Both the position numbers and the translations under genes were made by a program. Source: an uncultured Desulfobulbus sp. (lineage in GTDB: Bacteria > Desulfobacterota > Desulfobulbia > Desulfobulbales > Desulfobulbaceae). Taken from it: a stretch of DNA of 64,000 bases. The stretch spans positions 1,800,001-1,864,000 of the forward strand of contig NZ_OY760916.1 of assembly GCF_963664075.1 (NCBI RefSeq), read 5' to 3'. Below, piece after piece: positions 10,315 through 29,669 of the stretch (position 1 is its first letter; the number at the start of each line of letters is the position of its first letter). Under the pieces are notes generated by a model, which was not told where the DNA came from, did not search any database, and saw nothing but the letters and a program-made list of their open reading frames with translations.

Positions 10315-10380
10315 ACTGGTCTGTTCGCCCTCATTTCTTGCCTTTTTTTGTTGTCCCACTCTTTTTGCTGAAAAAGGATG

Positions 10381-10394
10381 CTCAATTAATTGAG
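10381..10394. promoter_or_regulatory. Perfect 14-bp palindrome CTCAATTAATTGAG
   Basis: A perfect dyad in the gap between the ABC transporter and doxX. It has no T-run or GC-rich stem, so it resembles a dimeric regulator site more than a terminator. Which gene it would control is unknown; doxX lies 228 bp downstream. Confidence 0.35.
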
Positions 10395-10457
10395 TGAATG
10401 CACATGTAAAAAAATATCTGTGCATTTATGCAAACAAGAACTGTGTTTATGCCTGAT

Positions 10458-10471
10458 TGATTTGCAAATCA
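10458..10471. promoter_or_regulatory. Perfect 14-bp palindrome TGATTTGCAAATCA
   Basis: A second perfect dyad, 64 bp after the first and unrelated in sequence. It could be an operator ahead of doxX. No repeat copy was noticed elsewhere in the window. Confidence 0.35.
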
Positions 10472-10621
10472 TCCGACATCATAGTGCAAGGCAAAGGAAA
10501 GCCTCTGGCCTCTGACTTTGATTCTGACAATTCCAAAGAGGGAGGGCAGTGAGGAAGAAAAAAATTCTAGGGCAGGTGAAAATCCCTGCCTCAATTATTT
10601 GATAATGAAAGGAAATGTATC

Positions 10622-11072
10622 TTGTTGAAAAAAATGTTTGCAACAAGAAATGATGTAGCCCTGACCGTCCTTCGTCTTGCCCTGGCTGTGGTCGTGCTTC
10701 CCCACGGAGCGCAAAAGGTTCTGGGGGTGTTTGGTGGCGCAGGATTTAACGGAACAATGCAGTTTTTCACTGTAACCATGGGGATTCCCTACCTGTTAGG
10801 TCTCATGGCAGTATTGGCCGAATCACTTGGGTCCCTTGGCCTTCTCTTTGGCTTTATGACCCGCCTCAGTGCATTTGGAGTCGGTGTAACCATGGTGGTC
10901 GCTGCCCTGATGGTTCACGTGCAAAACGGTTTTTTTTATGAACTGGTTCGGGACCCAGGCCGGTGAAGGGTATGAATATCATATCCTTGCAGCTGGAATG
11001 GCAGCGGCCCTGGTAATCGCCGGCGGAGGTCGCTGGTCAGTGGATGAGAAAATCAGCCAAAAGTTGATATGA
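10622..11072 (+). pseudogene. DoxX-family membrane protein with homopolymer frameshift
   Basis: A four-helix DoxX protein of about 150 residues. The N-terminal part reads through VLPHGAQKVLGVFGGAGFNG, then LLGLMAVLAESLGSLGLL, up to HVQNGFF. At the T8 run 10930-10937 the frame slips: removing one T restores the conserved family end MNWFGTQAGEGYEYHILAAG and IAGGGRWSVDE, ending at TGA 11070-11072. As given, translation ends after an out-of-frame YELVRDPGR. The start is TTG 10622 (GAAAGGA upstream) or ATG 10634. DoxX proteins are linked to thiosulfate/quinone or oxidative-stress functions; the exact role is unknown. Confidence 0.85.
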
Positions 11073-11232: not shown

Positions 11233-11237
11233 ATAAT
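11233..11237. repeat. Left target-site duplication ATAAT
   Basis: Five bases directly before the left transposon end. They are identical to 29077-29081 after the right end, the 5-bp duplication expected for Tn3-family insertion. Confidence 0.9.
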
Positions 11238-11275
11238 GGGGCTTGAAGCCCAATGGAACGAAAAACCACGTTAAG
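11238..11275 (+). repeat. Left terminal inverted repeat of the Tn3 element
   Basis: A 38-bp end starting GGGG and ending CACGTTAAG, the Tn3-family pattern. It contains the tnpA stop codon. Its exact reverse complement is at 29039-29076. Confidence 0.92.
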
Positions 11276-14200
11276 CAATCGCCACCATCTCAATTGGCTG
11301 ATTCAGAGGGCGGAGTTTTCCATTCTTAATTGCATCAGACAGCGTGAACGCATAATGCCCCAGCATGTTGACATGCCCGTGAACCAAAGGTGAAAGACGG
11401 GCTTCATCCTCTTTATTGATCACTACCGACCTCTGGCGAAGATGATCGAGTGCAGCCTGAATATAGATCGTGTTCCATAAAACCAAAGCATTCGTGACTA
11501 ACCCTAGGGCTCCCAACTGGTCCTCCTGCCCCTCGCGGTAACGCTTGCGGATTTCTCCCCGTCGCCCATGGCAAATCGCACGGGCAACTGCATGCCGCCC
11601 CTCGCCACGATTCAATTGCGTCAAAATGCGGCGACGATAATGTTCATCATCAATGTAGTTAAGAAGATATAGAGTCTTATTGATGCGTCCAACCTCGATA
11701 ATGGCCTGGGCAAGACTTGAGGGACGTTCACTTTTCAGTAACGAGCGGATTAATTCAGAAGCATGCACAGTACCGAGCTTAAGAGAACCCGCGATCCTCA
11801 GCATGTCATCCCAGTGTTGTTCGATCTTCGGGACATTCACCTGACCTCGGGCTAAATCATTCAATGGGCCATAATCGGCGTCTTTATCGACCCGCCAAAA
11901 GATTGCTTCGCCCGCATCTGCCAAGCGTGGTGAAAATTGGTAGCCCAGAAGCCAGAAGAGGCCAAAGACCATATTACTGGTGCCGCTGGTGTCGGTCATG
12001 ATTTCCGTCGGATTTAGTCCTGTCTGCTGTTCCAGCAACCCTTCCAAAACGAAGATGGAATCTCTCAATGTTCCCGGAATGACAATGCCGTGGAACCCGG
12101 AGTATTGATCTGATATAAAATTGTACCATGTGATTCCCTGCCGCGATCCATAATATTTCGGGTTAGGCCCTGCATTGATGGTTCGGATCGGCGTAACGAA
12201 ACGCATTCCATCAGCAGATGCAACTTCACCACCGCCCCACTCTTTTGCTAATGGAACAAGTGCTTGGTAATCGACCAACCGTGCATTTGCTCGGATGAGT
12301 GTTTCTGACCGAAGATAGTTCTGTTTCGCCCAGCTGAGGCGGTGTCTCGTCAAAGCCGGAATCTGATGTTTGATCAATGGTTCTAGGCCAATATTGCAGG
12401 CTTCCGCTAAAAGAACTGCACAGATACTGACATTCAGATTATCGGCTCGTGCATTAGCCTCACTGACATGGGTAAACTCGTCAGCAAAGCCGGTATGGGC
12501 ATGAATTTCCAACAATAGTTCAGTGAGGTCCACTGTTGGAAGCAGGCCCAAGACCTGTTCGTTCAATCTGGTCAAGCTCTCGGGTTCTTCCAGCTTCTCT
12601 AGATTGGTGATGGTCAGAGAAGGATTCTTACCCTTCAGATCAAGGATCACATTCGCATTGTTGTCAAAATTAGCCGAAACTTTTTTGTAGGTTGTGTCCA
12701 GTTGATGGATCAAACTGGCAATGGCTTCCTTGGGCTTGATTGGATGACCAAGTGAACGACAAACCTGAACGCGATTGGCCTGCCACTCTTCGCCTTGCAG
12801 GAGTTTGGATCTGGCATCACCCCAGCGATCACTTTGTTCAACGTATATATCTCGCCTACGTAGAGCGTCCTGGAGCTTATCAAGAAGACAGAGAGTGTAG
12901 CCGCGTCGGGTGACACGGCCTTCCTGATCAAAGACCAAGCGTTTCCACGGGCCTGAAATGATGTCGAGAGGTGGATTGTCCAAGTATTGTGTTCGCTTAA
13001 TGCCATCTGCCGCCAAGTAATTCAAAGCGTCCAGGGTTGTTTGGCCAGCCGGAGCAGATTTGAAAACAATATCTCGAAGCAACGTTGGAAGGAAGCGCCG
13101 CACACGGCCATACTGTTCCATCATCTCCTTTTGAAAACCCTCATCTGATGGCCTAGCCAAATCGCGGATCCTCAGAATCGTTTCTGCCAGATCCTCTTTT
13201 GAAATTTTTGAATATATCGCTTCCCTTAGACAGTCGTCCTTAGTTTCATCATTAATGATCATGGCGCAAATCTCGGCTAGGGTCAGGGCCGACTTATCCA
13301 AGTCTTTTAGCGAACGTAAGCGTTTCTTCTGACCGATTTTTTTTGCCTCACCGACGATCTTGGTAATGAACATATCCAGTACATCAAGGGCATCGTCAAG
13401 AGCCATGGTTTCGAAGGCTCTGACAAAAGCAACCAGAAATCCTATTCGCTTTTTGTCAGCCATGCGCCCAACCTTGTACATGGAGATCATTCCAGCATGT
13501 CGAGCTAAGCTTTTCAGCCGAGTAAGAGGGATATGTGAAAAATCGAGGCTTTGAATTCCAAACGCTTCTAACTTCTTGTAACGATTAACCGCATCATTAA
13601 ATGCAGGGCCGCTAATCTTGACGGGCCCTTTTTTAAATAGGTCGAACTGGGAATTGCGTAGTCCTTCCGAAATCTCCAGCAGCTTGTCCAGTTCCACTTT
13701 TTGTTCATCCGAGGGCAATGTCGAAAGTCGACTCCACAAGAGGCTAGTGGCTCGTTCTCGAATTTCCGCAATCAAGCGTGTGAGAGTTGTCACACCGGGG
13801 AGCAGCACCTTGTGTTGAATGAGCCATGCTGTTGCAAAGTCAAACATCAAGCTTGGCCTTTCGTTGCTGATCCAAGCTCGTGAGTATAGATGTCGGCTTA
13901 GGCGAAATCCCCAGGGCGGACTATTAAAATCGCGATAACCATATTGATCGCGGATCAGAGCCATGTGCTCCCACCTGGTGTTTTCTCGCCGGGCGTAACC
14001 AGATAATACCCTAATGTCTTTTATTGATAATTGATTCGCAACGAAGAGTTTAACATTTTTCGGCACGACGGTGAGGTCAGGAAGGAAATTTCCTAAAAAC
14101 CTGGCAACGGTGATTTGTAATGCAACTCCTAGCCGATTCTGTTCTCCGCGTCGTTCAGAAATAAAGGCGATGTCGGCCTCATCAAGCAGGAAATAGCGGG

Positions 14201-14279
14201 CAAGTTGAGCTTCGTTGGGTTCTTCGGAAAACTGACCGTAACTACTCCTCTGCTCTTCGTTTAAAAAATCGACAGGCAT
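11271..14279 (-). CDS. tnpA: Tn3-family transposase
   Basis: A full-length 1002-residue DDE transposase catalysing replicative transposition at the 38-bp ends. It has the N-terminal DUF4158-type region (MPVDFLNEEQRSSYGQF, then FLLDEADIAFI) and the C-terminal catalytic DDE region: EIMTDTSGTSNMVFGLFWLL, FSPRLADAG, and the end HGHVNMLGHYAFTL. No frameshift or stop is seen, so it should be active. The stop lies within the terminal repeat. tnpR follows upstream in the same direction, separated by 890 bp containing a hicB gene. Confidence 0.97.
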   Translation of the reverse strand: MPVDFLNEEQRSSYGQFSEEPNEAQLARYFLLDEADIAFISERRGEQNRLGVALQITVARFLGNFLPDLTVVPKNVKLFVANQLSIKDIRVLSGYARRENTRWEHMALIRDQYGYRDFNSPPWGFRLSRHLYSRAWISNERPSLMFDFATAWLIQHKVLLPGVTTLTRLIAEIRERATSLLWSRLSTLPSDEQKVELDKLLEISEGLRNSQFDLFKKGPVKISGPAFNDAVNRYKKLEAFGIQSLDFSHIPLTRLKSLARHAGMISMYKVGRMADKKRIGFLVAFVRAFETMALDDALDVLDMFITKIVGEAKKIGQKKRLRSLKDLDKSALTLAEICAMIINDETKDDCLREAIYSKISKEDLAETILRIRDLARPSDEGFQKEMMEQYGRVRRFLPTLLRDIVFKSAPAGQTTLDALNYLAADGIKRTQYLDNPPLDIISGPWKRLVFDQEGRVTRRGYTLCLLDKLQDALRRRDIYVEQSDRWGDARSKLLQGEEWQANRVQVCRSLGHPIKPKEAIASLIHQLDTTYKKVSANFDNNANVILDLKGKNPSLTITNLEKLEEPESLTRLNEQVLGLLPTVDLTELLLEIHAHTGFADEFTHVSEANARADNLNVSICAVLLAEACNIGLEPLIKHQIPALTRHRLSWAKQNYLRSETLIRANARLVDYQALVPLAKEWGGGEVASADGMRFVTPIRTINAGPNPKYYGSRQGITWYNFISDQYSGFHGIVIPGTLRDSIFVLEGLLEQQTGLNPTEIMTDTSGTSNMVFGLFWLLGYQFSPRLADAGEAIFWRVDKDADYGPLNDLARGQVNVPKIEQHWDDMLRIAGSLKLGTVHASELIRSLLKSERPSSLAQAIIEVGRINKTLYLLNYIDDEHYRRRILTQLNRGEGRHAVARAICHGRRGEIRKRYREGQEDQLGALGLVTNALVLWNTIYIQAALDHLRQRSVVINKEDEARLSPLVHGHVNMLGHYAFTLSDAIKNGKLRPLNQPIEMVAIA

Positions 14280-14871
14280 TCAATCACCGCTGATAAAGAA
14301 TGGTCACAATATTTAAAAGTCGAGAGTTGCTGCAGGCGAAATGTACATGGACCCGCGATATTCTCTATAGTTGGCCCAACGGGAGGGGGCCGTGAGAAAA
14401 GCCGCCAAATTTTGTTAGTGATCAAAACTATCATTCATGATGCGGGTTGCTTCATCCCTGAAGATGAATGATTGTATTGGAGACGGTGGCGGAAACGAGG
14501 GTCGTGAGCGTTTAATGGGCTCCATGATCCGGTAGCTGAAGTACACTACGGGTATTCGAAGGAAAAACCTATGATCAGGTTATTCCAATTTGATGAGAGC
14601 AGTGTACAAATAAGCTTGCGAGCAGATCGAATCTTGTTCATAGGCCGATGGGACTTTTGCCACTTTTCCCGGTAACAGAATTGCGCAAAAGCTCTCGATG
14701 GCATTTAAAATATTCCATATTTTCAGCGAATTGTTCCATTTTTTTATTTCTTGATCCATTCAAAGGAAGTCTCCGTGGACTTTTGCCACTTTTAATGAGC
14801 CTGAAAAGACAGATTGGGATTAAAGCATAGCTCCGCAGAGCAGACCGTATTTTGGAGGGAAGAACTGAAAT
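14280..14871. other. tnpA-hicB gap with repeats and a possible hicA remnant
   Basis: No complete gene. Notable contents: a 72-bp block at 14373 with a related copy at 28428; a 17-bp direct repeat, GGACTTTTGCCACTTTT, at 14651 and 14777; and, just before hicB, codons for MSLKRQIGIKA and a stop at 14828, which resemble the last residues of a HicA toxin. The rest of hicA is not present, so the toxin appears lost. Confidence 0.5.
14373..14444 (+). repeat. Divergent direct repeat, left copy
   Basis: Contains GCCCAAC, then AAAAGCCGCCAAATTTTGTT, then CTATC. A related block in the same orientation lies at 28428-28500. Together they bracket tnpR and the entire cargo. The identity of the repeat family is unknown. 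Confidence 0.5.
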
Positions 14872-15141
14872 ATGAAATATCCCGTTGCAATTCATAAAGA
14901 TCAGGATTCTTGTTTTGGTGTATCGGTTCCCGATATTCCCGGATGCTTTTCAGCCGGGGAAACCATCGATGAAGCTCTGAAAAATATCCAAGAGGCTATT
15001 TCTGATCATTTGCAGATTCTGGCTGAAGAGGGGAAGGGTGCTCCTGAACCGTCTGAGGTGGAGAAGCATTACGATAATCCCGATTATGCACAAGCTTTAT
15101 GGGCGCAGGTAACCTATAAATATAACGGCTCGCACTCTTAA
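14872..15141 (+). CDS. hicB: HicB-type antitoxin, truncated
   Basis: Eighty-nine residues with the HicB fold: MKYPVAIHKDQDSCFGVSVP, DIPGCFSAGETIDEALKNIQ, HLQILAEEGKGAPEPSEV. The usual C-terminal ribbon-helix-helix or HTH domain (normally 40-50 more residues) is missing; the frame ends WAQVTYKYNGSHS. Only a scrap resembling the HicA C-terminus precedes it. HicB normally neutralises the HicA mRNA interferase and represses its own operon; this version could do neither autorepression nor, without hicA, any toxin control. Its GGAGGG ribosome site is intact. Position between tnpA and tnpR fits toxin-antitoxin passengers known in Tn3 elements. Confidence 0.85.
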   Translation: MKYPVAIHKDQDSCFGVSVPDIPGCFSAGETIDEALKNIQEAISDHLQILAEEGKGAPEPSEVEKHYDNPDYAQALWAQVTYKYNGSHS

Positions 15142-15165
15142 ATGGGCAGAGGCTCGCTTTTGCCT

Positions 15166-15765
15166 TCATCGTGGCGAGGTATCATCATCACGCGGTCCTG
15201 TCCAATTGACCCGTGCAAGTGTTTCGATCAAAGTGGTGCGCTTAACACCGAAGTTTCGGCATACCGCTGCCTTGGACATCCCATTATCAAGCGCGACAAT
15301 AATCGCATCCAGTTTCTCACCGACAATGGTGCGTGGCCGACCACCAATCCTGCCACGTTGCCGAGCGGCAGATAAGCCAGCAACGACTCGTTCTTGGATC
15401 AAAGCTCGCTCATACTGTGCAAGCGCACCAAATACGTGAAAAAAAAGTTCTCCTGACGGCGTGCTGGTATCCATGTTCTCGGTGAGGGAACAAAAGGCGA
15501 CCTGTTTTTCCCGCAATTCATTCACAATGGAAATCAAATGGGTCAGGGATCGCCCAAGGCGGTCTAGTTTCCAGACAACAAACACATCACCGGGATTAAC
15601 ATACTCCAGCGCCTTACACAGCCCGGTTCGATCATCCCTTGCACCCGAGGCTCGATCTTCGAAAATGTTCCTGACATCAACCCCAGCTTTCAAGAGTGCA
15701 TCGCGCTGCAGGTCTGTACTTTGCCGATCCGAATCCGACGAAACCCTCATATAGCCGATCAACAT
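15166..15765 (-). CDS. tnpR: Serine resolvase of the Tn3 element
   Basis: A 199-residue small serine recombinase that resolves cointegrates at res. The catalytic domain is complete: the active-site serine is in GYMRVSSD (residues 4-11), followed by DLQRDALLKAGV, the arginine-rich DRLGRSLTHL and TENMDTSTPSGELFFHVFGA with the conserved E and R (QYERALIQERV). The C-terminal HTH (MSKAAVCRNFGVKRTTLIE) binds res. It lies 0.9 kb upstream of tnpA in the same direction, the Tn21-like arrangement. It should be functional. Confidence 0.96.
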   Translation of the reverse strand: MLIGYMRVSSDSDRQSTDLQRDALLKAGVDVRNIFEDRASGARDDRTGLCKALEYVNPGDVFVVWKLDRLGRSLTHLISIVNELREKQVAFCSLTENMDTSTPSGELFFHVFGALAQYERALIQERVVAGLSAARQRGRIGGRPRTIVGEKLDAIIVALDNGMSKAAVCRNFGVKRTTLIETLARVNWTGPRDDDTSPR

Positions 15766-15900
15766 TAACGGAAAACCTCCTGTTATGATTTTCCGTACAT
15801 TATACCTTTCCGACAGAGTTTTTCGTATGAAAAATATGGCCTAGATTTGGTTTTGTTACTGCCAGTCAGCCTCTTGTCGGAAAACAGCTGTTTCCCGATA
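15766..15900. promoter_or_regulatory. Probable res site and tnpR promoter
   Basis: AT-rich DNA immediately upstream of tnpR with repeated half-sites: TTTCCGACA at 15807 and its inverse TGTCGGAAA at 15875, plus a related TTTTCCGTACA near 15790 and TTCGTATGAA near 15832. Three dyads upstream of tnpR is the standard res layout. Exact subsite limits cannot be fixed by eye. Confidence 0.6.
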
Positions 15901-15966
15901 AAAAAAATGGGGGGAGAAGACATCCAACCCTAGATTGATCGTGGCAGAAATGAAACTAAAATATGC

Positions 15967-17151
<1,185 letters not shown>

Positions 17152-17287
17152 TTTAGTAGTCCTCTCGTATTCTCTATGATTTCGCTTCTATCAATGTTCA
17201 TGAAGTCAGAGACATCATCGAGCGCATTTCTTAAATGTGTCTCTCATATGGACTTGCAACCTGAAATTTCCGGAAGTAACAATGATT

Positions 17288-17905
17288 CTACCGAATAAAA
17301 TTGGTAGCTATCCAAGTTTCTTTTTCAGGTAAGCCATACTTCTCTTTACCCAAAGAAATACTTTTTATTAAAAAAGCCATGTTTTTCCCCAATGTACGCA
17401 TAGTCTGTAATCCCTCTTCGTCTTTTCTGACATCATCTGGTGTAAATCCATGGACGCTGTTCCAATACTGACTTGAGGCAATTGGCATACCTGCAATTGT
17501 AAAATATTTATTAATTACATCAAAAGTTGATGAGCAACCGCCTCTTCTAGCTGATACTACTGCAGCGCCCACTTTCATACTCCTTTCAAATGGAACGCTA
17601 AAGAAAAGGCGATCTATAAAGGATACTAGGGTTCCATTGGCAGAAGCAAAATACACAGGGGAACCAATTACGATACCATCTGCTTGTTCAAATTTTAGTG
17701 CTACTTCATTGACTAAATCATCAACTATACATTTTCCAGTTGATTTGCATTTACGACATCCAATGCATCCTCTAATATCCTTATTTCCGACATGTATAAT
17801 TTCTGTTTTAATCCCCTGTCCATTCAGAGATTTTTCTACTTCGCTTAAAGCTGTATATGTGCATCCATGTACATTTGGACTTCCATTTATTAATAATACA
17901 TTCAT
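17288..17905 (-). CDS. Flavodoxin-fold NAD(P)H-dependent FMN reductase, Cys-rich
   Basis: About 205 residues from ATG 17905. The FMN loop is MNVLLINGSPNVHGCTYTAL; the cysteine cluster CIGCRKCKSTGKC (near residue 47) resembles the iron-sulfur flavoprotein family; IVIGSPVYFASANGTL is the second flavin-contacting loop. It could pass electrons to quinones, nitro compounds or metal oxyanions. Codon use is strikingly AT-rich compared with the genes on both sides, suggesting separate acquisition, perhaps from a Firmicute- or Bacteroides-like donor. A paralogue in the host backbone lies at 37210. Confidence 0.87.
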   Translation of the reverse strand: MNVLLINGSPNVHGCTYTALSEVEKSLNGQGIKTEIIHVGNKDIRGCIGCRKCKSTGKCIVDDLVNEVALKFEQADGIVIGSPVYFASANGTLVSFIDRLFFSVPFERSMKVGAAVVSARRGGCSSTFDVINKYFTIAGMPIASSQYWNSVHGFTPDDVRKDEEGLQTMRTLGKNMAFLIKSISLGKEKYGLPEKETWIATNFIR

Positions 17906-18018
17906 ATTCTTACTCCCTTTAAAATAAAAAATTGAGATGATCCCCCATAGTTTTGAGAGTGGTAACATACACTCTTCTTGTGCAGGGAAGGAAAAACCTC
18001 TTAGCCTTTATAGATCAA

Positions 18019-19146
18019 TTACTTATTGTATTGCTCATCTTCGACATGCTCCATCCAACTGACGGTGGAACCATTCTGAGGTTCGGAAATTGCCACATGC
18101 GACATCGCACTGTCCGGTGAGGCTCCATGCCAGTGGCGTACATTCGCCGGAATCCAGACGACATCGCCGGGAAAGATTTGCTGAATGACTTCTCCTTCGG
18201 ATTGTACCAGGCCACGGCCTGAAATAACGATGAGCGTCTGCCCTACGGGGTGTGTGTGCCAGGCAGTCCGCGCTCCAGCATCAAAATTGACTATTCCACC
18301 ACCATAGCTACCCGTAGTTTCAGATTTAAACCTGGATCCAACCGTTACATTCCCCGTGAAGTAGGCTGATGGTGCTGTAACAGGGGACGTTTTCCTGGTA
18401 ACCTTTAATTCTTTCAAACTTGCATGAGGAAGAGGCGTGCCCAACACTTCGTCGAGAATCCTCGCACCATATTCAGCACTCTGCACGTCGACTTTGTCCC
18501 TGAGGACTTCTATGAAATCCTGTAACTGGGCTTTATTATAACCCGTGCGCATTGCTATATTCAGGTGCCCCTTGAACATGGGTTCTGTTCCCGGCAAAGC
18601 TGACAAAGTGCTGATAGTCACCAATTCTCGTTGCTTATGGCTCAGGACGTCACGAACAAAGATATCAGCAAAGAGATGCTCGACGAGAAACTTGTCGATA
18701 ATCGGTGTGAACACAGCATACCCGCTGGTGCGGTGTGAAATATCCCTGCCAACAAGCTCGTTCCTGACCTTGTGTCCATAAACGTTCTGATCAAAATCAA
18801 TTGGAAGGGGGGATGCTTCTGGACCGGTTTTGTCAACCTTACCCTGCGCCTTACGTTCGTCCATGACAGCGATAAACGTGTTGATTCCCATCAATGCCCG
18901 AGGAAACCCGGCATAAGCATAAATTTGGACAAGGGTTTCCTTGATTTGGTTTACGGTCAATCCGTCATCTAATCCCTGATTTAAAGCCACTTTCAATCCA
19001 GAAAGATTGCCGCTCGCAGTAAAAGCGGCAATGGGAATAATCGCCTTCTCTGTTTTATTTAATTCGGTATCTTCTGCCCGAGAAATGCCATTCATGCTTA
19101 GAAAAGCAAGGACTAGGGTGAACAACCCAAGAAATTGTTTGTTCAT
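18019..19146 (-). CDS. Exported carboxymuconolactone decarboxylase-cupin fusion
   Basis: 375 residues from ATG 19146 (GGAGAT upstream). A signal peptide ends ISRAED. Two CMD/AhpD-like helical domains follow: IPIAAFTASGNLSGLKVALN with QIYAYAGFPRAL, and RELVTISTLSALPGTEPMFK with HLNIAMRTGYNKAQ. The C-terminal cupin carries metal ligands in HTHPVGQTLIVISGRG and GDVVWIPANVRHWHG. Neither CMD domain has a CxxC, so peroxidase activity like AhpD is unlikely. Proteins with this layout are found beside aldo/keto reductases and hydrolases in proteobacterial stress loci; the reaction is not known. Confidence 0.88.
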   Translation of the reverse strand: MNKQFLGLFTLVLAFLSMNGISRAEDTELNKTEKAIIPIAAFTASGNLSGLKVALNQGLDDGLTVNQIKETLVQIYAYAGFPRALMGINTFIAVMDERKAQGKVDKTGPEASPLPIDFDQNVYGHKVRNELVGRDISHRTSGYAVFTPIIDKFLVEHLFADIFVRDVLSHKQRELVTISTLSALPGTEPMFKGHLNIAMRTGYNKAQLQDFIEVLRDKVDVQSAEYGARILDEVLGTPLPHASLKELKVTRKTSPVTAPSAYFTGNVTVGSRFKSETTGSYGGGIVNFDAGARTAWHTHPVGQTLIVISGRGLVQSEGEVIQQIFPGDVVWIPANVRHWHGASPDSAMSHVAISEPQNGSTVSWMEHVEDEQYNK

Positions 19147-19211
19147 GATATCTCCAGCTTTTATGTTATGTGGCTGCATCCCTTTAAAAAGAGATGCAGC
19201 ACAGATTCCCT

Positions 19212-20300
19212 TTAGTTCAAGCCTTTCTTTTTTAGGAAATCGCTCATCAGATCTGCGATTTGGATATTATTCAGATCGGAAAAGGGAAAATGGGTATTGC
19301 CGTGAATACCAATCTCGGGCAAATGGACAACCGTGGCATCACCGCCATGACGGTTTACGGTTTTCACCCATAATCTTGCCATTTGAAGACGGACTCTCCA
19401 CATGTCCTGCCCTGGGTTGTCCACAGGTGTTGCCGGAATATTGTCTCCGTAATAGATGATGATGGGAATTTTGGTCAACTTCAGGAAATCCGCCAAGGGA
19501 ACACTCAACGGATCTAACGTTCCGCCAGAACTGGCCATCGGCGGCGGAACCTCACCCTCTGGGAAAATGAAATTGGAGCCTGGTTCGTAAGCAACGACAC
19601 CGCGAATCTTCTCGCTTTTGAGAACGGTCGCCCATCCCATCCCCCCGCTATGAGAATGGGTGACGAGCACTCCAGGGCCGATTTTGTTGAACAGCGCCGC
19701 CACAGCGTCCGAGTTGACATCGATATCATTGGTGCCGGTGTCGGGCGTCATCTGGCGAAAGTACTGTTCAAGGGCATTCGGATCCTTTGAAAACTGCACG
19801 CCTGGAAAGAAATTCGGCCAAATGCCAAGGCGGAAAATATCGAACCACTTCTGCTCATCAGGCTCAGCTTTTATGGCGGTGGGTTTGGTGCTGCGTCCGG
19901 CATTGCCACGGCGGGGTTGGTCGATCACATACACCCCGTAACCTCGGCGCAGAAAAATGTTTTGATACCCCTCTCTCCCATCTGGAGTCGTCTCCCAGGT
20001 CTTGGAAAATTGACCGAATCCATGCCAGAGCACGAGGGGGAATTTTCTGGCCTTTGGGGGAATCTGGTAAAATACATACGCATGGTCCCCATGATAGGTT
20101 TGTCCCTCGGATGTCATTTTGATGGGATCGAATGTTCCCGGATTGGTGACGACCGAACCACCAACTGCAAAACTTCCCTGCGCCTGTATAACCAGCGGTG
20201 CGGCTGTGCCACTTTCCAGGGGTTCTGCATAGGCGGTGATGTTCAGGTTGACGAAAGTTAGTACGAGTGCAGCAATGAGACTGCTCAGCTTTGTCTTCAT
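19212..20300 (-). CDS. Exported alpha/beta hydrolase
   Basis: 362 residues with signal peptide (LIAALVLTFVNLNITAYAEP). Alpha/beta hydrolase landmarks: oxyanion HGFGQFSKTWE, nucleophile elbow THSHSGGMGW (Ser), and late histidine in GIHGNTHFP. The family resembles secreted esterases annotated near CMD-cupin proteins. The substrate is unknown. It follows the hydrolase at 20313 within the cargo operon with a 12-base gap, so the two exported hydrolases are probably co-expressed. Confidence 0.85.
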   Translation of the reverse strand: MKTKLSSLIAALVLTFVNLNITAYAEPLESGTAAPLVIQAQGSFAVGGSVVTNPGTFDPIKMTSEGQTYHGDHAYVFYQIPPKARKFPLVLWHGFGQFSKTWETTPDGREGYQNIFLRRGYGVYVIDQPRRGNAGRSTKPTAIKAEPDEQKWFDIFRLGIWPNFFPGVQFSKDPNALEQYFRQMTPDTGTNDIDVNSDAVAALFNKIGPGVLVTHSHSGGMGWATVLKSEKIRGVVAYEPGSNFIFPEGEVPPPMASSGGTLDPLSVPLADFLKLTKIPIIIYYGDNIPATPVDNPGQDMWRVRLQMARLWVKTVNRHGGDATVVHLPEIGIHGNTHFPFSDLNNIQIADLMSDFLKKKGLN

Positions 20301-20312
20301 CGTTCACTCCTC

Positions 20313-21392
20313 TTACAATGTTTCAGCATAGAACTGAGTCAATTTGACCATGGCCTGGTTCACATATTGTGGCTTCCAATACGTTTCAATATGGGTCGCT
20401 CCTTCGAGAAGGTAGAGTTCTTTCTTTTTGGCGTTGATCGCCTTTTTAAAGGCATCCTCAGTCATATACAGAGAATCTGCCTTGCTCCCGGCCAACATCA
20501 GAAGTGGCTGATTGATCAAATCCATATTGGTTGCAGCATCGAAATTCATTAACTCGAGCAGGTTGCTCAGTGGGTATCTGAAGGTCGAATTGGGGTGTGC
20601 GTGGGTTTTGCCATAATACTCAAAACCTTGGCGATAAAGGTCGAACGGCAGCTTTGCAATCTGCTCATCAGAGAGTTTTGTGTCAGCGGTATAGATGATT
20701 TTGCCTCCAGCCGCTTCCTCTGCACGGGCGCTTGAGGCCTGCTGCAAACGGTCCTGTATGGTTGAGAGTTGCGAATCCCTAAAGCCATTACGTCGGACCA
20801 AGCCTGAATTGAACATGCTCAAGGTCGCCACGGATTTGAACCGCTTGTCCGTTTGAGCGGCTTTCAATGAATAACCGCCGCCACCACAAATGCCCAGGAG
20901 GCCCAAACGATCCGTGTCGGCACCGGCATACTGGCTGATAAAATCCGCCATCCCATGAATGTCTTCGATGCGATTGGCGGGCTTGTCCGTATTTCGTGGT
21001 TCGCCGCCACTTGCACCTTGATATGCCGCGTCAGCAGTGATGGTGATATACCCTTGTTCAGCAAGTCGTTGGGCATACAGGCCAGCCACTTGTTCTTTAA
21101 CGCCTCCATTGGGGTGGGCGACCACAATCGTCGGGTATTTCTTCTTTGAGTCATAGTTCGGCGGAGTATAAACGTTGGCCGAAATGTCAATGCCATCCAG
21201 TTTGTAGGTGACCGGATGTATGTTCACGGCACCTGGTACGTTTTTCGTCAACGCGCCATCATACACAAGAGAAAAGGGGTTTTGTTTATAGTCCGCAGCC
21301 ATGGTTGCTCCTGTTGCCACAAGAATGAATGATGAAACAAACAACCACGTGATTGTTCCTCTCCATTTCGACGTCTTGTTCCACTCTGTCAT
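20313..21392 (-). CDS. Exported dienelactone hydrolase-like enzyme
   Basis: 359 residues from ATG 21392, chosen because GAGGAGC lies just upstream; longer frames start inside the neighbouring gene. An N-terminal hydrophobic signal (WLFVSSFILVATGATMAAD) exports it. The nucleophile elbow is LGICGGGGYS, with Cys as in dienelactone hydrolases rather than Ser; the acid is probably in LAGSKADSLY and the histidine in GATHIETYW. The substrate is unknown. It is adjacent to a second exported hydrolase. Confidence 0.85.
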   Translation of the reverse strand: MTEWNKTSKWRGTITWLFVSSFILVATGATMAADYKQNPFSLVYDGALTKNVPGAVNIHPVTYKLDGIDISANVYTPPNYDSKKKYPTIVVAHPNGGVKEQVAGLYAQRLAEQGYITITADAAYQGASGGEPRNTDKPANRIEDIHGMADFISQYAGADTDRLGLLGICGGGGYSLKAAQTDKRFKSVATLSMFNSGLVRRNGFRDSQLSTIQDRLQQASSARAEEAAGGKIIYTADTKLSDEQIAKLPFDLYRQGFEYYGKTHAHPNSTFRYPLSNLLELMNFDAATNMDLINQPLLMLAGSKADSLYMTEDAFKKAINAKKKELYLLEGATHIETYWKPQYVNQAMVKLTQFYAETL

Positions 21393-21424
21393 TTTCCAGC
21401 TCCTCATGGGGTGAATAGATAGGA

Positions 21425-22315
<891 letters not shown>

Positions 22316-22331
22316 TTAAACAATGGGGCCC

Positions 22332-23576
22332 TCAATTCTCACTGGTTCTTAGGGGGAGGAGTAACAGGGTAGACAAAAGGCAACCTATTCCGCATACCGC
22401 TATCACCCATCCCATGGGCCATGGGGTATTGTCAGTAAATATGCCGACTAGCCCAGAGCCGAGGATACCGCTGCCATATTGCATGGCACCCGTTAACGCA
22501 GAAACGGCTCCCGCGCGTTCAGGGAAAAGTGCCATTGCACCGGTGATGGAGTTGGCAACGATAAGCCCGGTGGTCGAGACAAAAATGAACAGAGGAACAA
22601 CTAAACCCCAAAGCCCTCCCCAACCTATTCCCGCAGAGAAGGCGGTGGCTATTGCGGAAAACGCACAGAGGCAGCAGCCAACCAACAGCACCCGGTCGTA
22701 GCCATGGCGCAATACCAGTCGTGCGTTGAGCATGTTGGCAAACATGATGCCGATAATACCCAGGGCAAACAAGATCCCATACTTTTGCACTGGTACGTGA
22801 TAGTAGCTGATGTAGGCAAAGGGGGTTCCCGCTATGTAGGCGTACATCCCGGCATAGAGGAAGGCTCCTGTTCCCACGTAACCGAGCAGACGTCGATTCT
22901 TGAGAAGAGTGAAGTAATGAATCATCGCCCGGCCAATATGTTCTCTATTGCGTCTGGCTGCAGGCAAAGTTTCCGGAATTGTCATCAGTGCGGATAGGGT
23001 AACCAGGCCTACGCCTACCAAAACCCAAAAGATCGCCCGCCAACTTGCCCTGGCGACGATTTGCCCACCAACCGTCGGCCCGATGAGCGGTGCGATTGCC
23101 ATCACTGTGATCAGGGTGGAGAGCATCTGGGCGGCACGATTGCCCGCATAAAGATCGCGAACCATGGCCCGTGACAGGGCTACACCGGCACATGCACCGA
23201 CAGCCTGAACAATTCGCCATGCAATCAAGAGATGGGCATTGGTGGCCAGGGCACAGCCTGCCGAACCAATCACGAAAAGAACCAACCCGACAGCCACTGC
23301 CGGTCGACGTCCATACCGGTCGCTGATCGGACCCCAGAGTAACTGGCCCAGGCTAAAACCGATGAGGTAGCTGGAAATTGTCAGTTCGATCATGCCGGTA
23401 TCCGCACCCAAAGACTGGGCCATGAGCGGCATTGCCGGTAAATACAGATCCGTGGAGATCGAGGCAAACCCCATCAGCATGCTCAATACCGCAAGAACAT
23501 ACCAACCCGGTTTGATGGCGATGGGTTCGACCATACTGTTGGCTTTGGTTGATTTTATCGAGATTGAGGTGGCCAC
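22332..23576 (-). CDS. Bcr/CflA-family MFS drug efflux transporter
   Basis: 414 residues, twelve predicted helices. Family motifs: STDLYLPAMPLMAQSLGAD, FSLGQLLWGPISDRYGRRP (motif A), RIVQAVGACAGVALSRAMVR and AIAPLIGPTVGGQI. The start is GTG 23576, right after the stop of the SDR gene (TAAGTG), with AGGAG seven bases before; an internal ATG at 23534 lacks a ribosome site. It probably exports a hydrophobic toxic compound and so supplies the efflux arm of the cargo. Confidence 0.93.
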   Translation of the reverse strand: MATSISIKSTKANSMVEPIAIKPGWYVLAVLSMLMGFASISTDLYLPAMPLMAQSLGADTGMIELTISSYLIGFSLGQLLWGPISDRYGRRPAVAVGLVLFVIGSAGCALATNAHLLIAWRIVQAVGACAGVALSRAMVRDLYAGNRAAQMLSTLITVMAIAPLIGPTVGGQIVARASWRAIFWVLVGVGLVTLSALMTIPETLPAARRNREHIGRAMIHYFTLLKNRRLLGYVGTGAFLYAGMYAYIAGTPFAYISYYHVPVQKYGILFALGIIGIMFANMLNARLVLRHGYDRVLLVGCCLCAFSAIATAFSAGIGWGGLWGLVVPLFIFVSTTGLIVANSITGAMALFPERAGAVSALTGAMQYGSGILGSGLVGIFTDNTPWPMGWVIAVCGIGCLLSTLLLLPLRTSEN

Positions 23577-24323
23577 TTACAGCTCCTGTACTGTTGGCCG
23601 AAAAAGAATTTCGTTAATATCCACATCTTTCGGCTGACTTATGGCAAAGGCGACGGCCCGGGCAAAAGAATCTGCAGGGATCGCGTATTGTTCGTAAAAT
23701 CCCTGGACAGCTTCGAAAACATCACCTTCGGTTATACTCTTGGGCAGTTCAGTGGCAACAGCCCCGGGTGAGATCACCGTTGTGCGGATGTTATAGGGTT
23801 TCACTTCTTGGCGAAGCCCTTCGGAAAGGGCGCGCACTGCAAATTTTGTCGCTGCATACACAGCGGCACCAGCTCGGACCGTATGTCCTGCCACAGAGGA
23901 AACATTGATAAAATGACCGGATTTTTGGTTTTTCATGTACGGCAAAGCTGCTGCAATGCCGTAAAGTACCCCTTTTAGGTTCACATCGATCATGGCGTCC
24001 CAGTCATCGATTTTGAGCCGCTCCAGAGGTGAATGGGGCATCAGGCCTGCATTGTTGATCATGACATCAATGCGTCCATAGGTTTCCACTGTGGCATCGA
24101 CCAACGCTTGTACCTGTTCGACCTTGGTTACATCGGTGGTGACCGCAAGGGCCTGCCCACCCTGACTTTTTAATTCTTCGGCAAGTGCCGTAATGCGATC
24201 TGAGCGGCGAGCGGCTAAGACAACGGTAGCTCCCTGTTCACTTAAACGCCGGGCAGTAGCTTCACCAAGACCGCTGCTTGCTCCTGTTATGACGATTATT
24301 TTCCCGTTAATTTCAGTATTCAT
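23577..24323 (-). CDS. Short-chain dehydrogenase/reductase
   Basis: 248 residues from ATG 24323. Classical SDR: cofactor loop [19 protein letters not shown] at about residue 85 (MINNAGLM), catalytic Ser in NVSSVAGH and YxxxK in [12 protein letters not shown], then [10 protein letters not shown]. It resembles YdfG-type or cytosolic NADPH dehydrogenases acting on small alcohols or carbonyls. Directly coupled to the efflux gene (stop abuts its GTG). Confidence 0.94.
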
Positions 24324-24372
24324 AGTTCTATCTCGTTGATGTCGTGTTTGTGTAAAAGAGTTTAGAGAGTGT

Positions 24373-25834
<1,462 letters not shown>

Positions 25835-26764
25835 ATGAATATCGAAAACGAGCGAGAGAAGTTGGAAAACATTTTGAACTTACTGGGGCAAAGTATTTCT
25901 CGTTGGACAGGTAAGGAGGAGAGGGTGGAAACATCCGTTCCAGGGTTGTCGCTTTTCAGACGCTATCAACCGACCGGCCCCATGGGGGGAATGTATGAAC
26001 CAAGCATCTGTCTTATTGCCCAGGGGGCAAAGCGCGTGTTACTCGGCGACGATACCTACGTATATGATGCAGACCATTACTTAATCACTGCCGTGCATCT
26101 CCCCACAATTGCGGAAGTTATTACTGCCAGCGAAACAAAGCCGTATCTCGGGCTCAGGCTAAAATTTGACCTCCATCAACTTGCGCAACTGATGGCAGAT
26201 AGCAAACTCCCTCCTCCGCGTGTTCAACAGTCACCACGGGGGATGGCTATAGGGAAGGTAACCTTACCGCTCCTCTCGAGTTTTCAAAGGTTGCTTGATC
26301 TTCTTGAAGAAGAGGAAGATGTTCCGATTCTTGCGCCTGGAATAATACGGGAAATCACCTATCGCCTACTCATTGGTGATCAAGGGGAGCGTTTACGCCA
26401 GATATCTTCGGTATTCAGCCAAGGGAATCAAATAGCGCGAATTATCGATTGGCTAAAAGACAACTATACCACATCTCTTCGCATCGAAGATCTCGCAAAG
26501 CAAGCCAGTATGAGCGCTTCGTCCTTTCACCAACATTTTAAATCAATTACAGCGATGACGCCTTTGCAATTTCAGAAAATGTTGCGCTTGAATGAAGCTC
26601 GCAGAATGATGCTTACCGAACCGACAGATGCCTCAACAGCTGCTTTTAATGTTGGCTATGAAAGCGTATCTCAATTCAATAGGGAATATCATCGATTATT
26701 CGGTGCTCCACCATTACGTGATATCAAAAAATTGCGCGAGATACCCACTGAAGGTAGAGCATAG
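25835..26764 (+). CDS. AraC-family regulator, YqhC-like
   Basis: 309 residues from ATG 25835 (AGGTGG upstream; a GTG nine bases earlier is less likely). The N-terminal AraC_N-type domain includes YEPSICLIAQGAKRVLLGDD and HYLITAVHLPTIAEV, as in YqhC. Two HTH motifs close the protein: IEDLAKQASMSASSFHQHFK and STAAFNVGYESVSQFNREYH. YqhC responds to aldehydes and activates yqhD-dkgA. By analogy this protein likely senses an electrophile and switches on the divergent reductase-efflux operon; that is inference. Confidence 0.93.
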   Translation: MNIENEREKLENILNLLGQSISRWTGKEERVETSVPGLSLFRRYQPTGPMGGMYEPSICLIAQGAKRVLLGDDTYVYDADHYLITAVHLPTIAEVITASETKPYLGLRLKFDLHQLAQLMADSKLPPPRVQQSPRGMAIGKVTLPLLSSFQRLLDLLEEEEDVPILAPGIIREITYRLLIGDQGERLRQISSVFSQGNQIARIIDWLKDNYTTSLRIEDLAKQASMSASSFHQHFKSITAMTPLQFQKMLRLNEARRMMLTEPTDASTAAFNVGYESVSQFNREYHRLFGAPPLRDIKKLREIPTEGRA

Positions 26765-26909
26765 AAAGTAAACCTTTTTAAATCACCTTAATATACGTTT
26801 ATTTTTAGTTCATTGCTGTATTTCCACTTCTTCTCTCAAACCATATTTATCTCCACGAATATCCCCTGACTATCCGTGTTATAAAAAAATACTCACAAAG
26901 GAAGAGTAT

Positions 26910-27251
26910 ATGTCAGTATCAGATTCCAGTGCCTCTCACAGCACTCCATTACGCCGTGTCATGATTGCAGGTGCATCAGGACTTGTTGGCCACCATATTC
27001 TTGCAGGTTTGTTGGCGGATGACACGGTTAGTGAAGTGCATGCCCTCTGTCGGCGTAATCTAGCCGTGAAGCATCCGAAGCTCTGTGTACATTTGGTCGA
27101 TTTCAATGACCTGCCGCCACTGATGTTGGGGGCCATACTGCCCCTTAACTGGCGTCCTGTTGCGGCTCAACAGGTTGCAGCAGTATTGCTGACAGAGCTA
27201 CCGTTAAGTCATGGAAAGAAAGTTCTTTCCTCTGCCGAAATCCAAAATTGA
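26910..27251 (+). pseudogene. NAD(P)-binding oxidoreductase with internal deletion
   Basis: 113 residues joining the two ends of a roughly 210-residue atypical SDR. The N-terminus has the cofactor loop IAGASGLVGHHILAGLL and LVDFNDLPPL; then the text jumps to LNWRPVAAQQVAAVLL and KKVLSSAEIQ, which belong to the C-terminus of such proteins. About 100 residues including the active site are missing while the frame is kept. It is unlikely to be active. Confidence 0.7.
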
Positions 27252-27519
27252 GTCAAACCATACCCCGCAGCGAACAGTAAGGCTGAGAGGTTAGCTGCCT
27301 GTTGGCCTTCATGCTCATCACGTCGAATTTGTACTCCTTTTGCTGAATTCTTCGGCCCCAGCACGCTACCGTTCATCCCAAAGGGGGGCTCCGGCCATTC
27401 TGGATTCAGAAATATATTTGCGGCCTCCCCCAGGTTTCGGGGCGCTCGAATGAGCGGACGGCCAAAGTCGGCGAGATTATTTGTCGCCGCATCATCTCTT
27501 TCATCACAGTGAGGAAAAC
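27252..27519. other. Gap between damaged oxidoreductase and SDR
   Basis: A minus-strand frame of 108 codons (27209-27535) covers this stretch, but I recognise no domain, and it overlaps both flanking genes. I treat the DNA as unassigned. Confidence 0.4.
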
Positions 27520-28359
27520 ATGTCGAATACATCACGTAGTTGGTTAATCACCGGTTGTTCAACAGGATTGGGTCGGGCACTCGCGGAGCTTTTGATTATC
27601 CGGGGAGAGCGCGTTGTCGCAACGGCGCGAAATCCTGAAACAGTGCAAGACATAGTTGCCGGCCACGAAAACGCACGAGCGCTTAAGCTCGATGTCACCA
27701 GCTCGGAGGATATCCGCAGTGCGGTTGAGGAAACGGAACAACAGTTCGGTGGTCTTGATGTGCTGGTAAACAATGCGGGCTACGGCTACATCTCTTCTAT
27801 CGAGGAGGCGGAAGAAGACGAGTACAGAAGCCTGTTCGAAACCAACCTGTTCGGCTTGATCGCCTTGACTCGGGCAGTCCTTCCGGGGATGCGCGCACGC
27901 GGGTGTGGACATATTGTAAATATTTCTTCCGTCGGAGGAATGATCGGAAATCCCGGGTCCGGCTACTATGCCGCCACAAAATTTGCGGTTGTCGGCTTCT
28001 CCGAGTCGTTGTCGAAAGAAGCTGGGCCACTCGGTATCAAGGTGACGGTGGTTGAACCCGGTCCCTTCAGGACCGATTGGCAGGGGCGTTCCCTCAAGAC
28101 GGCACCGCAACGGATCGACGCCTACGCCAAGACCGTTCATGCGCGAGTGCACCAGCTCAGCGCAACCAGTGGTCAACAGGCCGGTGATCCAGTCCGCGCA
28201 GCACAGGCAATCGTAACTGCGGTGGATGCTCCGCAACCACCGCTCCATCTCGTGCTTGGCGCCCCCGGGCTTCAAATGGCGCGACAACAACTCGGCGCAC
28301 TTCAGCAGGAATTCGACGCTTGGGAAGCAGTGACGTTGAGTGCCGATTTCCCCGCATAA
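27520..28359 (+). CDS. Short-chain dehydrogenase/reductase (last cargo gene)
   Basis: 279 residues from ATG 27520 (GAGGAAA upstream). SDR of the ketoreductase/retinol-dehydrogenase-like type: WLITGCSTGLGRALAELL, LDVLVNNAGYGY, NISSVGGMIG (Ser), [14 protein letters not shown] (Tyr/Lys), VEPGPFRTDW. It is transcribed away from the main cargo operon, downstream of the regulator and the deleted oxidoreductase. GC content is visibly higher than in its neighbours, suggesting a different source. Confidence 0.93.
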   Translation: MSNTSRSWLITGCSTGLGRALAELLIIRGERVVATARNPETVQDIVAGHENARALKLDVTSSEDIRSAVEETEQQFGGLDVLVNNAGYGYISSIEEAEEDEYRSLFETNLFGLIALTRAVLPGMRARGCGHIVNISSVGGMIGNPGSGYYAATKFAVVGFSESLSKEAGPLGIKVTVVEPGPFRTDWQGRSLKTAPQRIDAYAKTVHARVHQLSATSGQQAGDPVRAAQAIVTAVDAPQPPLHLVLGAPGLQMARQQLGALQQEFDAWEAVTLSADFPA

Positions 28360-28392
28360 CTTGACGCGAGGAATGCGACTATTCGTCGATCT

Positions 28393-28425
28393 GAAGCAGG
28401 TGCCTCAGCTTCTGTCGTTTTTTTT
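28393..28425 (+). terminator. Possible terminator after the last cargo SDR
   Basis: GAAGC at 28393 pairs with GCTTC at 28408, with AGG/CCT inside, followed by TGTCG and a T8 run at 28418-28425. The stem is short and imperfect. Confidence 0.5.
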
Positions 28426-28427
28426 AA

Positions 28428-28500
28428 GCCTAACACGGCGGTCGGGGATAAAAGCCGCCAGAATTTGTTAAGGCATGATACACCTATCGCTGATAGTGCA
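28428..28500 (+). repeat. Divergent direct repeat, right copy
   Basis: Shares AAAAGCCGCCA, TTTGTTA and CTATC with the block at 14373, in the same order and orientation. GCCTAAC and GTTAAGGC at its two ends are near-complementary, with GGCGG and CCGCC between, so it can fold. Family unknown. Confidence 0.5.
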
Positions 28501-28647
28501 CATCAGGGAGGGATCATAATACAGGTACACTGGGCAAAGATAGAGCTTGAAGAACAGTGGTTTGTTGAGGATTCTGAGAGACAAACGTTGTTACCCGGCA
28601 AATCCCAGGGGTAGCAGTTAGCAGTCATAGTTCTGTTGAAGTTTTAC

Positions 28648-28715
28648 GGGGCTTGAAGCTCAATGGAACGGTAATTCAAAGCTTTACATAATGGCTCCAT
28701 TGGACTTCAACCCCC
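28648..28715. repeat. 68-bp pair of degenerate Tn3-type ends facing each other
   Basis: Starts GGGGCTTGAAGCTCAATGGA and ends TCCATTGGACTTCAACCCCC, which match as inverted repeats at 17 of 20 positions and both resemble the transposon ends. Flanking bases TTTAC and TCTAC are close to a 5-bp duplication. It looks like a tiny internally deleted element, or two old ends fused, inside the larger transposon. Confidence 0.6.
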
Positions 28716-28830
28716 TCTACGCCCATGTGAATCCCTACAGGATATCTGAGTTGGATATGAATGCAAGATTGCCCATTGAAGTGGCGGCTTAAAAGTTGGC
28801 GGTTATCGCAGCTACCCGGTCACTACCCCG

Positions 28831-29043
28831 GTTTTATGGAACACGATCTATATTCAGGCTGCACTCGATCATCTTCGCCAGAGGTCGGTAGTGATCAATA
28901 AAGAGGATGAAGCCCGTCTTTCACCTTTGGTTCACGGGCATGTCAACATGCTGGGGCATTATGCGTTCACGCTGTCTGATGCAATTAAGAATGGAAAACT
29001 CCGCCCTCTGAATCATCCAATTGAGATGGTGGCGATTGCTTAA
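28831..29043 (+). pseudogene. tnpA: 3' fragment of a second tnpA copy
   Basis: Encodes the last 70 residues of the transposase (VLWNTIYIQAALDHLRQRSV to PIEMVAIA) in frame, ending TAA at 29041. Compared with the complete minus-strand gene it is inverted, and over the 247 bp including the terminal repeat there is one base change (Gln to His near LRPLN). The homology starts abruptly at 28830. It provides the right end of the 17.8-kb element. Confidence 0.95.
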
Positions 29044-29076
29044 CGTGGTTTTTCGTTCCATTGGGCTTCAAGCCCC
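29039..29076 (-). repeat. Right terminal inverted repeat of the Tn3 element
   Basis: Exact reverse complement of the 38-bp left end at 11238-11275, ending GCTTCAAGCCCC. It includes the stop codon of the tnpA fragment. Confidence 0.92.
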
Positions 29077-29081
29077 ATAAT
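29077..29081. repeat. Right target-site duplication ATAAT
   Basis: Same five bases, same orientation, as at 11233-11237. It lies nine bases before the ATG of the acetyltransferase gene. Confidence 0.9.
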
Positions 29082-29090
29082 CAACAGACT

Positions 29091-29669
29091 ATGGAACTAC
29101 ACGAATTACTGAAGCATTTTAATCAAGGGCTCCCGGTCTGTGAGGGAGATGAGGCCCATCAGCTTTTAGTCAGCCTGAGCAATGAGGCAATGCGCCTGAC
29201 TGCTGGACTCAATGGCACCTATCATAGTCCGGATGAGGTCCGAAAAATATTTTCTGCGTTGACGGGCAAGGAAGTTGATCCAAGTTTCACCTTGTTTCCA
29301 CCATTTTACGCAGACTTTGGCAAAAACATCACTGTCGGCAAAACGGTCTTTATCAATGCCGGATGCAAGTTTCAGGATCAAGGAGGTATCTTTCTTGGAG
29401 ATGGGTGCCTGATTGGTCACAACGTGGTGATGGCCACAGTCAATCATGGCTTGAGCCGAGAAAAACGGCACTGGAATTATGTTGCGCCCATAACCTTAGG
29501 CAGCAATGTCTGAATTGGCTCGAATGTGACTATCCTCCAGGGGGTAACCATCGGAGACGATGCCGTTGTCGCGGCGGGAGCCGTTGTAACCGACGATGTA
29601 GCTGCTGGAACTGTTGTCGGTGGTGTCCCTGCACGATTCATAAAACAAATAGACCCAAAAGAAGCGTAA
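29091..29669 (+). pseudogene. Maltose/galactoside O-acetyltransferase-like gene with internal TGA
   Basis: A left-handed beta-helix acyltransferase of 192 codons: PPFYADFGKNITVGKTVFIN, INAGCKFQDQGGIFLGDGC, catalytic His region MATVNHGLSREKRHW, then GSNV, stop, [20 protein letters not shown] and [11 protein letters not shown]. The TGA at 29511-29513 replaces the tryptophan codon of the conserved VWIG turn, a one-base change. The Tn3 element inserted nine bases ahead of the ATG, taking away the native promoter and ribosome site. Loss of expression followed by decay is the simplest account. Confidence 0.88.

Follow-up and report, generated by a model that had tools for sequence, protein, structure and literature searches.

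A 17.8-kb Tn3-family unit in a Desulfobulbus genome, probably an inverted composite with the tail of an unrelated transposon nested in its right end

How a cluster of metabolic genes came to lie between two identical Tn3-type ends is the question raised by a stretch of DNA from an uncultured Desulfobulbus sp. (RefSeq assembly GCF_963664075.1, contig NZ_OY760916.1, positions 1,800,001 to 1,864,000). These 64,000 nucleotides are referred to below as the window, and all coordinates are given within it. The original prediction placed a base-exact transposon of 17.8 kb here; its ends proved exact, but its coordinates had taken in both flanking 5-bp repeats, and the Tn3-family unit without them measures 17,839 bp (11238-29076). 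We call the transposon that supplied both outer ends TnA, and an unrelated Tn3-family transposon whose remnant lies in the right end TnB. Our reading, to which we assign a probability of roughly 0.74, is that the unit is a Tn1721-type composite with its two copies inverted, built and moved by the history proposed below. Its features, with inverted repeat abbreviated to IR and open reading frame to ORF, are as follows.

11233-11237, no strand: left target duplication, ATAAT
11238-11275, plus strand: terminal IR of TnA on the tnpA side, 38 bp, same as the right one
11271-14279, minus strand: tnpA of TnA, intact Tn3 transposase of 1002 aa (Pfam, NCBIfam, Tn4430 alignment)
14872-15141, plus strand: HicB-like antitoxin ORF between tnpA and tnpR, with no recognised partner (Pfam PF15919)
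15166-15765, minus strand: tnpR, serine resolvase (Pfam and comparison)
15766-15900, minus strand: predicted res-like region (aligns with DNA upstream of a Methylomonas plasmid resolvase)
15967-26764, no strand: main cargo cluster (Pfam and NCBIfam names; occurs in relatives without this transposon)
26910-28359, plus strand: further cargo, a short ORF (26910-27251) and a second short-chain dehydrogenase/reductase (SDR) gene (no such match in two relatives)
28648-28715, no strand: palindrome P, 68 bp, two halves like the TnA IR (IR_A), bordering the cargo
28716-28829, plus strand: TnB remnant, the last 24 tnpA codons and a complete IR (plasmid, protein and shuffle comparisons)
28830-29076, plus strand: last 247 bp of the second TnA copy, tnpA 3' end and IR
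29039-29076, minus strand: terminal IR at the right end, 38 bp
29077-29081, no strand: right target duplication, ATAAT

The terminal IRs are equal at all 38 positions, and they are of the GGGG..TAAG kind, about 38 bp long and accompanied by a 5-bp target duplication, that is found in the Tn3 family. They form the tips of two arms (11238-11484 and 28830-29076) that are inverted copies over 247 bp with a single mismatch at offset 60, and past 247 bp the identity ends sharply. This similarity is far beyond chance, and it bears out the prediction that the right end is an inverted copy of the last 247 bp of tnpA plus its IR. A search of the own genome (4,775,109 bp, one contig) with the tnpA region returned two places, the full gene and the right-end piece, so that the 247-bp end, sought at other loci as had been proposed, occurs in this genome only there. 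The predicted ATAAT was likewise seen at both borders of the unit. Two random 5-mers drawn by the window's own 5-mer composition are equal with a probability of 0.0012, or 0.007 if both hold at least four A or T; a chance match is unlikely, but the repeat is not overwhelming as sole evidence. The match of ATAAT on both sides suggests movement of the unit as a whole. That the unit formed recently, as had also been claimed, does not follow from the arms, since one mismatch in 247 bp was the sole basis for the claim and gene conversion between the arms would look alike.

The right end had been taken for a plain second end, but it is instead a nest of palindrome P, the tail of a different Tn3 transposon and the 247 bp of tnpA. 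The TnB remnant consists of codons at 28718-28789, a stop at 28790-28792 and an IR ending in GGGG at 28829, which abuts the TnA piece without a gap at 28829/28830. A plasmid search with 28640-28832 matched 816 records; in each of the best 25 the match runs from 28716 or 28718 to about 28829, with 80-83% identity in the top 17 and 74-79% in the remaining 8. Five plasmid records were examined; the match is the end of an annotated Tn3 family transposase gene in L095, L097 and L098, no gene is listed in the region in L096, and L099 carries no annotation. With up to 13 mismatches permitted, the TnB IR was found in both orientations around one stretch in L095 (2 and 1 mismatches), L096 (1 and 3) and L099 (3 and 4), whereas the two IRs of L098 belong to two separate tnpA copies and only one IR was found in L097. 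These plasmid relatives have the order tnpR-tnpA and IRs of the GGGGTAGTGACCGGG type. The remnant's protein is 72% identical over the last 25 residues of a TnB TnpA (E 8e-9), and the tail alignments score 72 and 74, where the best shuffles reach 17.6 and 13.6. When the cargo region was compared with plasmids, the best 20 of 204 records all matched solely at 28718-28830, the TnB piece. The left tnpA is unbroken at 11484/11485, the point that matches the TnB/TnA junction, and is an internal empty site for the TnB insertion. The picture suggested by these comparisons is of an unrelated TnB inserted into a second TnA copy, of which only the outer side persists. TnB may be of the Tn5403-like kind; only 24 codons and one IR of such a transposon would remain here. 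Tn5403 is mentioned in PMC5142620.

Other candidates for this region were discarded. The stretch 28716-28829 had been considered as cargo or a conserved RNA-like motif; Rfam gave no match, and the annotated plasmid search led to a Tn3 tnpA tail with its IR, which also replaced the early idea that 28791-28829 is a motif following resolvase genes. Derivation of the right-end interior from the own tnpR region was rejected with scores of 9.3 and 8.5 against 15766-16000 and of 11.5 and 13.2 against 14280-15990, where shuffle means were 8.7 to 12.1. The 20-base TnB IR pattern does not occur in the viral contigs. TnB-type IRs with GGCC rather than GGGG tips occur in two other genomes, G050 and G057 (L080:3730-4584, L118:5034-5642, L007:770-808 and L119:6719-6757); they directly follow a resolvase gene in 2 of the 4 places and look like solo resolvase cassettes. 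A further pair, CATAGTTCTGTTGA within the right end (28626-28639) and CATAGTCTGTTGA, inverted, just outside it (29077-29100), scores slightly over the best of 100 shuffles and is perhaps due to chance.

The outer 20-odd bases of each half of palindrome P are similar to those of the terminal IR; over 38 bases the halves have 12 and 16 mismatches. G050:C30 contains a homologue of P, 78% identical and with the centre preserved, which lies upstream of a resolvase gene; a TnB-type IR follows this gene. P is probably an older small unit at the edge of a deletion. A plain insertion of P into TnB was considered and dropped; the DNA to its left is not TnB, and the flanks TTTAC and TCTAC agree at 4 of 5 positions.

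At the left, the tnpA and tnpR frames are intact. TnpA covers the whole Pfam DDE_Tnp_Tn3 profile (PF01526, 1-389 of 389), scores 1073.9 bits against NF033527 (cut-off 500) and aligns over residues 6-992 with Tn4430 TnpA (PDB 7qd8, 7qd4), in which the acidic residues of its motifs SADGMR (688), TDTSG (762) and NRGEGRH (890) have counterparts; we take these to be the catalytic D, D and E. The sequence further points to a resolution module of the Tn3-family kind, with a Pfam resolvase gene and an alignable region upstream, where the alignment with the Methylomonas plasmid element reaches 15900. This module looks exchanged with another Tn3 group, because the resolvase shares 78% identity with the one from a different Tn3 group on an Aeromonas plasmid, where the transposase is just 21% identical to TnpA of TnA, and because a resolvase query against 35 tnpA loci matched in 23 of them at 33-49% identity. 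The original prediction had called the transposon complete and set the cargo between one full copy and a second copy's end. We do find the outer ends, tnpA and the resolvase gene, along with a left module and a second-copy end, but no IR of the TnA type lies beside the resolvase, the best stretch in 14280-16137 having 19 mismatches in 38. The left part, with its tnpA, resolvase gene and res-like region, is thus not a full transposon, as its second IR is missing. The predicted architecture is correct in outline, and what we add to it is the nested foreign end, an apparently exchanged resolvase and the missing inner IRs.

The HicB-like ORF between tnpA and tnpR matches PF15919 at 1.5e-28 over profile positions 1-79 of 123; it has no NCBIfam match and no match among the same 35 tnpA loci. 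Toxin-antitoxin pairs of Tn3 elements are described as mostly adjoining res, and HicB is not mentioned in the main text of that account (PMC7157771).

In the history that we propose, two TnA copies would have come to stand inverted around the metabolic gene cluster with their tnpA ends pointing outward; in the Tn3 family a single intramolecular replicative transposition can yield inverted copies. In the right copy, TnB would have entered tnpA at 247 bp from the copy's end, and a deletion whose edge is now P would have removed whatever else there was of TnB and of this copy. At the join with the cargo the left copy would have lost its own second IR, while keeping tnpA; its resolvase/res module belongs to another Tn3 group. 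Acting on the two identical outer 38-bp ends, the TnA transposase could then have moved the 17.8-kb unit by replicative transposition to its present site, where ATAAT was left on either side, with resolvase and res predicted to resolve the cointegrate. The sequence itself shows the ends, the 5-bp repeat, the intact tnpA and tnpR frames, the TnB end abutting the TnA piece, the unbroken left copy and the cargo without the transposon elsewhere; the order of these events, the mechanism of the deletion and any present activity are inferred.

A number of observations weigh against this history. Neither an empty site nor another copy of the unit was found (the own genome has a single one), and its movement thus rests on one 5-bp repeat; nor was a relative at an intermediate stage found. 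A scan of genome contigs gave 38 loci with tnpA relatives, 18 of which have both IRs (at most 11 mismatches), and the 5-bp flanks of these 18 are identical in 5, different in 10 and lost at a contig edge in 3. The TnB remnant retains one end only; its own target duplication would be GGTTT. To the left of P no TnB sequence was seen in five comparisons, where 47 to 195 of 200 shuffles attained the observed score. Two more points may count against the history. The best-placed resolvase match lies on the strand opposite tnpA in 16 of the 23 loci and on the same strand, as in this element, in 7, so that a same-strand tnpR is not peculiar to it. A weak direct repeat near both interior ends (14374-14444 and 28427-28500), with a GGGG..TTAG stretch, scores 22.6 against 18.3 for the best of 300 shuffles and is possibly an old third IR.

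The same ends might have arisen in other ways. The 429 bp at 28648-29076 could be a TIME-like miniature element with IR_A-type ends on both sides, inserted near the cargo and only later forming a unit with the left tnpA end. At 28648 an IR_A-like end does begin in the right orientation, with 22 of its first 23 bases matching, and TIMEs are described as mobilising the DNA between them (PMC4133298). The flanks are unequal, however (TTTAC and ATAAT), the left half is part of a palindrome which in G050 occurs away from any tnpA end, and foreign TnB sequence lies inside, ending exactly at the tnpA piece, and we consider this origin unlikely. The same 429 bp might also be a working chimeric end module, put together from two unrelated Tn3 groups and a minimal IR palindrome. 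Such modules would be ready-made caps letting a lone tnpA unit gather neighbouring genes in Desulfobulbus-type bacteria, with the P-tnpR-IR stretch of G050 as a sister module; we regard this as a speculative and quite improbable extension.

An origin in place dispenses with movement altogether, the inverted TnA copies having come from intramolecular transposition at this site and ATAAT matching by chance. Inversions by replicative transposition do yield inverted copies, and the flanks are accessory DNA, but the probability of a random match (0.007 for AT-rich 5-mers, 0.0012 for any two) makes this distinctly improbable. We give hardly any credence to a misjoining of the inverted 247-bp copies in the assembly. 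Identical inverted copies are a known hazard, but the genome is a single contig, the copies differ at one base, and the right copy continues directly into a coherent TnB end.

Among the 18 relatives with both IRs, blastn found no tnpA sequence past the far IR in 17. The exception, in Izhakiella australiensis (L051:3796-5115), has tnpA 3' ends of this family inverted on either side of 1,320 bp, and its 5-bp flanks do not match. A contig of Legionella saoudiensis (L048:3465-3803 and 10008-11026) also has two tnpA 3' ends of this family, which share one orientation and are separated by about 7 kb. At the DNA level tnpA matched in 3 of 95 genomes, the own one included, and in none of 22 other genomes of the genus; another search matched in 10 of 257, again including the own one, with a best foreign match of 69% over 2,652 of 3,042 bases. 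TnA was not found in the viral contigs.

The main cargo cluster encodes aldo/keto reductases, an FMN reductase, a CMD-cupin, two hydrolases, a Bcr/CflA-type exporter of the major facilitator superfamily, an SDR and an AraC-type regulator, and from these families it may serve the handling of reactive small molecules. The cluster occurs in two related genomes, G050 and G186, without this transposon. Its first gene is 86% identical in DNA to G186:C24 (from 15967) and to G050:C41 (from 15976), and later blocks up to 26762 are 70-73% identical, with gaps at the FMN reductase in both relatives and at the second hydrolase in G050. No DNA match to either contig was found past 26762, and therefore the short ORF and the second SDR lie outside the shared block. 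Eight cargo proteins are 70-88% identical in both genomes; for the second hydrolase the identity is 73% in G186 and, over 115 aa, 57% in G050. In the cargo stretches compared from these genomes (20.0 and 27.0 kb), nothing matched TnpA or TnpR at more than 30% identity, and the G050 genome has no DNA match to tnpA of TnA. A CMD-cupin query matched in 29 of 195 relatives, a count that includes the own genome; apart from the gene in the window, matches at 74% over almost the full length came only from G050 and G186. On the E. coli plasmid NZ_CP021881 (L064:1-19096) a distant version of the cluster has two neighbours, a recombinase and a short TnpA-like stretch (34% identity over 137 residues). 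In the window, a 33-bp inverted repeat with 82% complementarity (25495-25527 and 25645-25677, 117 bp apart) immediately precedes the gene of the AraC-type regulator.

Of 23 genomes of the genus, only the own one has the DoxX gene of the left flank. The four same-genus stretches that were compared gave no match above 40% identity to any gene of the window other than the right-flank dehydrogenase. The gene just right of ATAAT (29091-29513) resembles sugar O-acetyltransferases and has an in-frame stop; it scores far below the NCBIfam cut-off, has no Pfam match and has a 55% homologue in G050:C5 (L081).

The locus offers a base-level record of how a Tn3 unit outside the clinical setting is patched from several transposons and acquires metabolic cargo; for the nested insertion, the left tnpA provides an internal control. 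The locus further indicates that a "hybrid end" can conceal a third transposon, of which 24 codons and one IR are the remnant here.

In architecture and inferred history the unit resembles both Tn1721 and the composites of TIME elements. Tn1721 is described as having arisen from two Tn1722 copies beside the tet region, one of them partly deleted (PMC5736529). As in that account, the cargo here adjoins a transposon module, the far end is a truncated transposase gene with the IR of a second copy, and 5-bp repeats surround the whole; past the cargo we found the second tnpA 3' end with its IR. Tn1721, however, has both right-hand IRs (IRRs) in the same orientation and a third, left-hand IR (IRL), whereas here the tnpA ends are inverted and both outermost, with no IRL found; there is no complete minor transposon with an IRL of its own, and no IR within 18 mismatches of 38 at 14280-16137. 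A partial Tn1721 in pAsa10 is reported to have opposed IRRs (PMC5736529). Tn7714, a Tn21/Tn1721 hybrid of about 22 kb whose movement has been shown, has a truncated tnpA with an intact IRR as its outer end (PMC11332342), and shares with our unit this end, the hybrid make-up from Tn3-family elements and a 5-bp repeat. In the account of Tn7714, unlike here, the IRL is kept, the cargo is resistance and no third, unrelated transposon end is described in the truncated tnpA. The TIME, TIME-COMP and TIME-RES elements (PMC4133298, PMC13367494) are comparable in that short Tn3-derived ends mobilise the DNA between them and in that TIME-RES has a resolvase of foreign origin. TIME-COMP elements are described as having a TIME at each end and lacking transposition genes in between, whereas in this unit one side is a module whose left end holds an intact tnpA.

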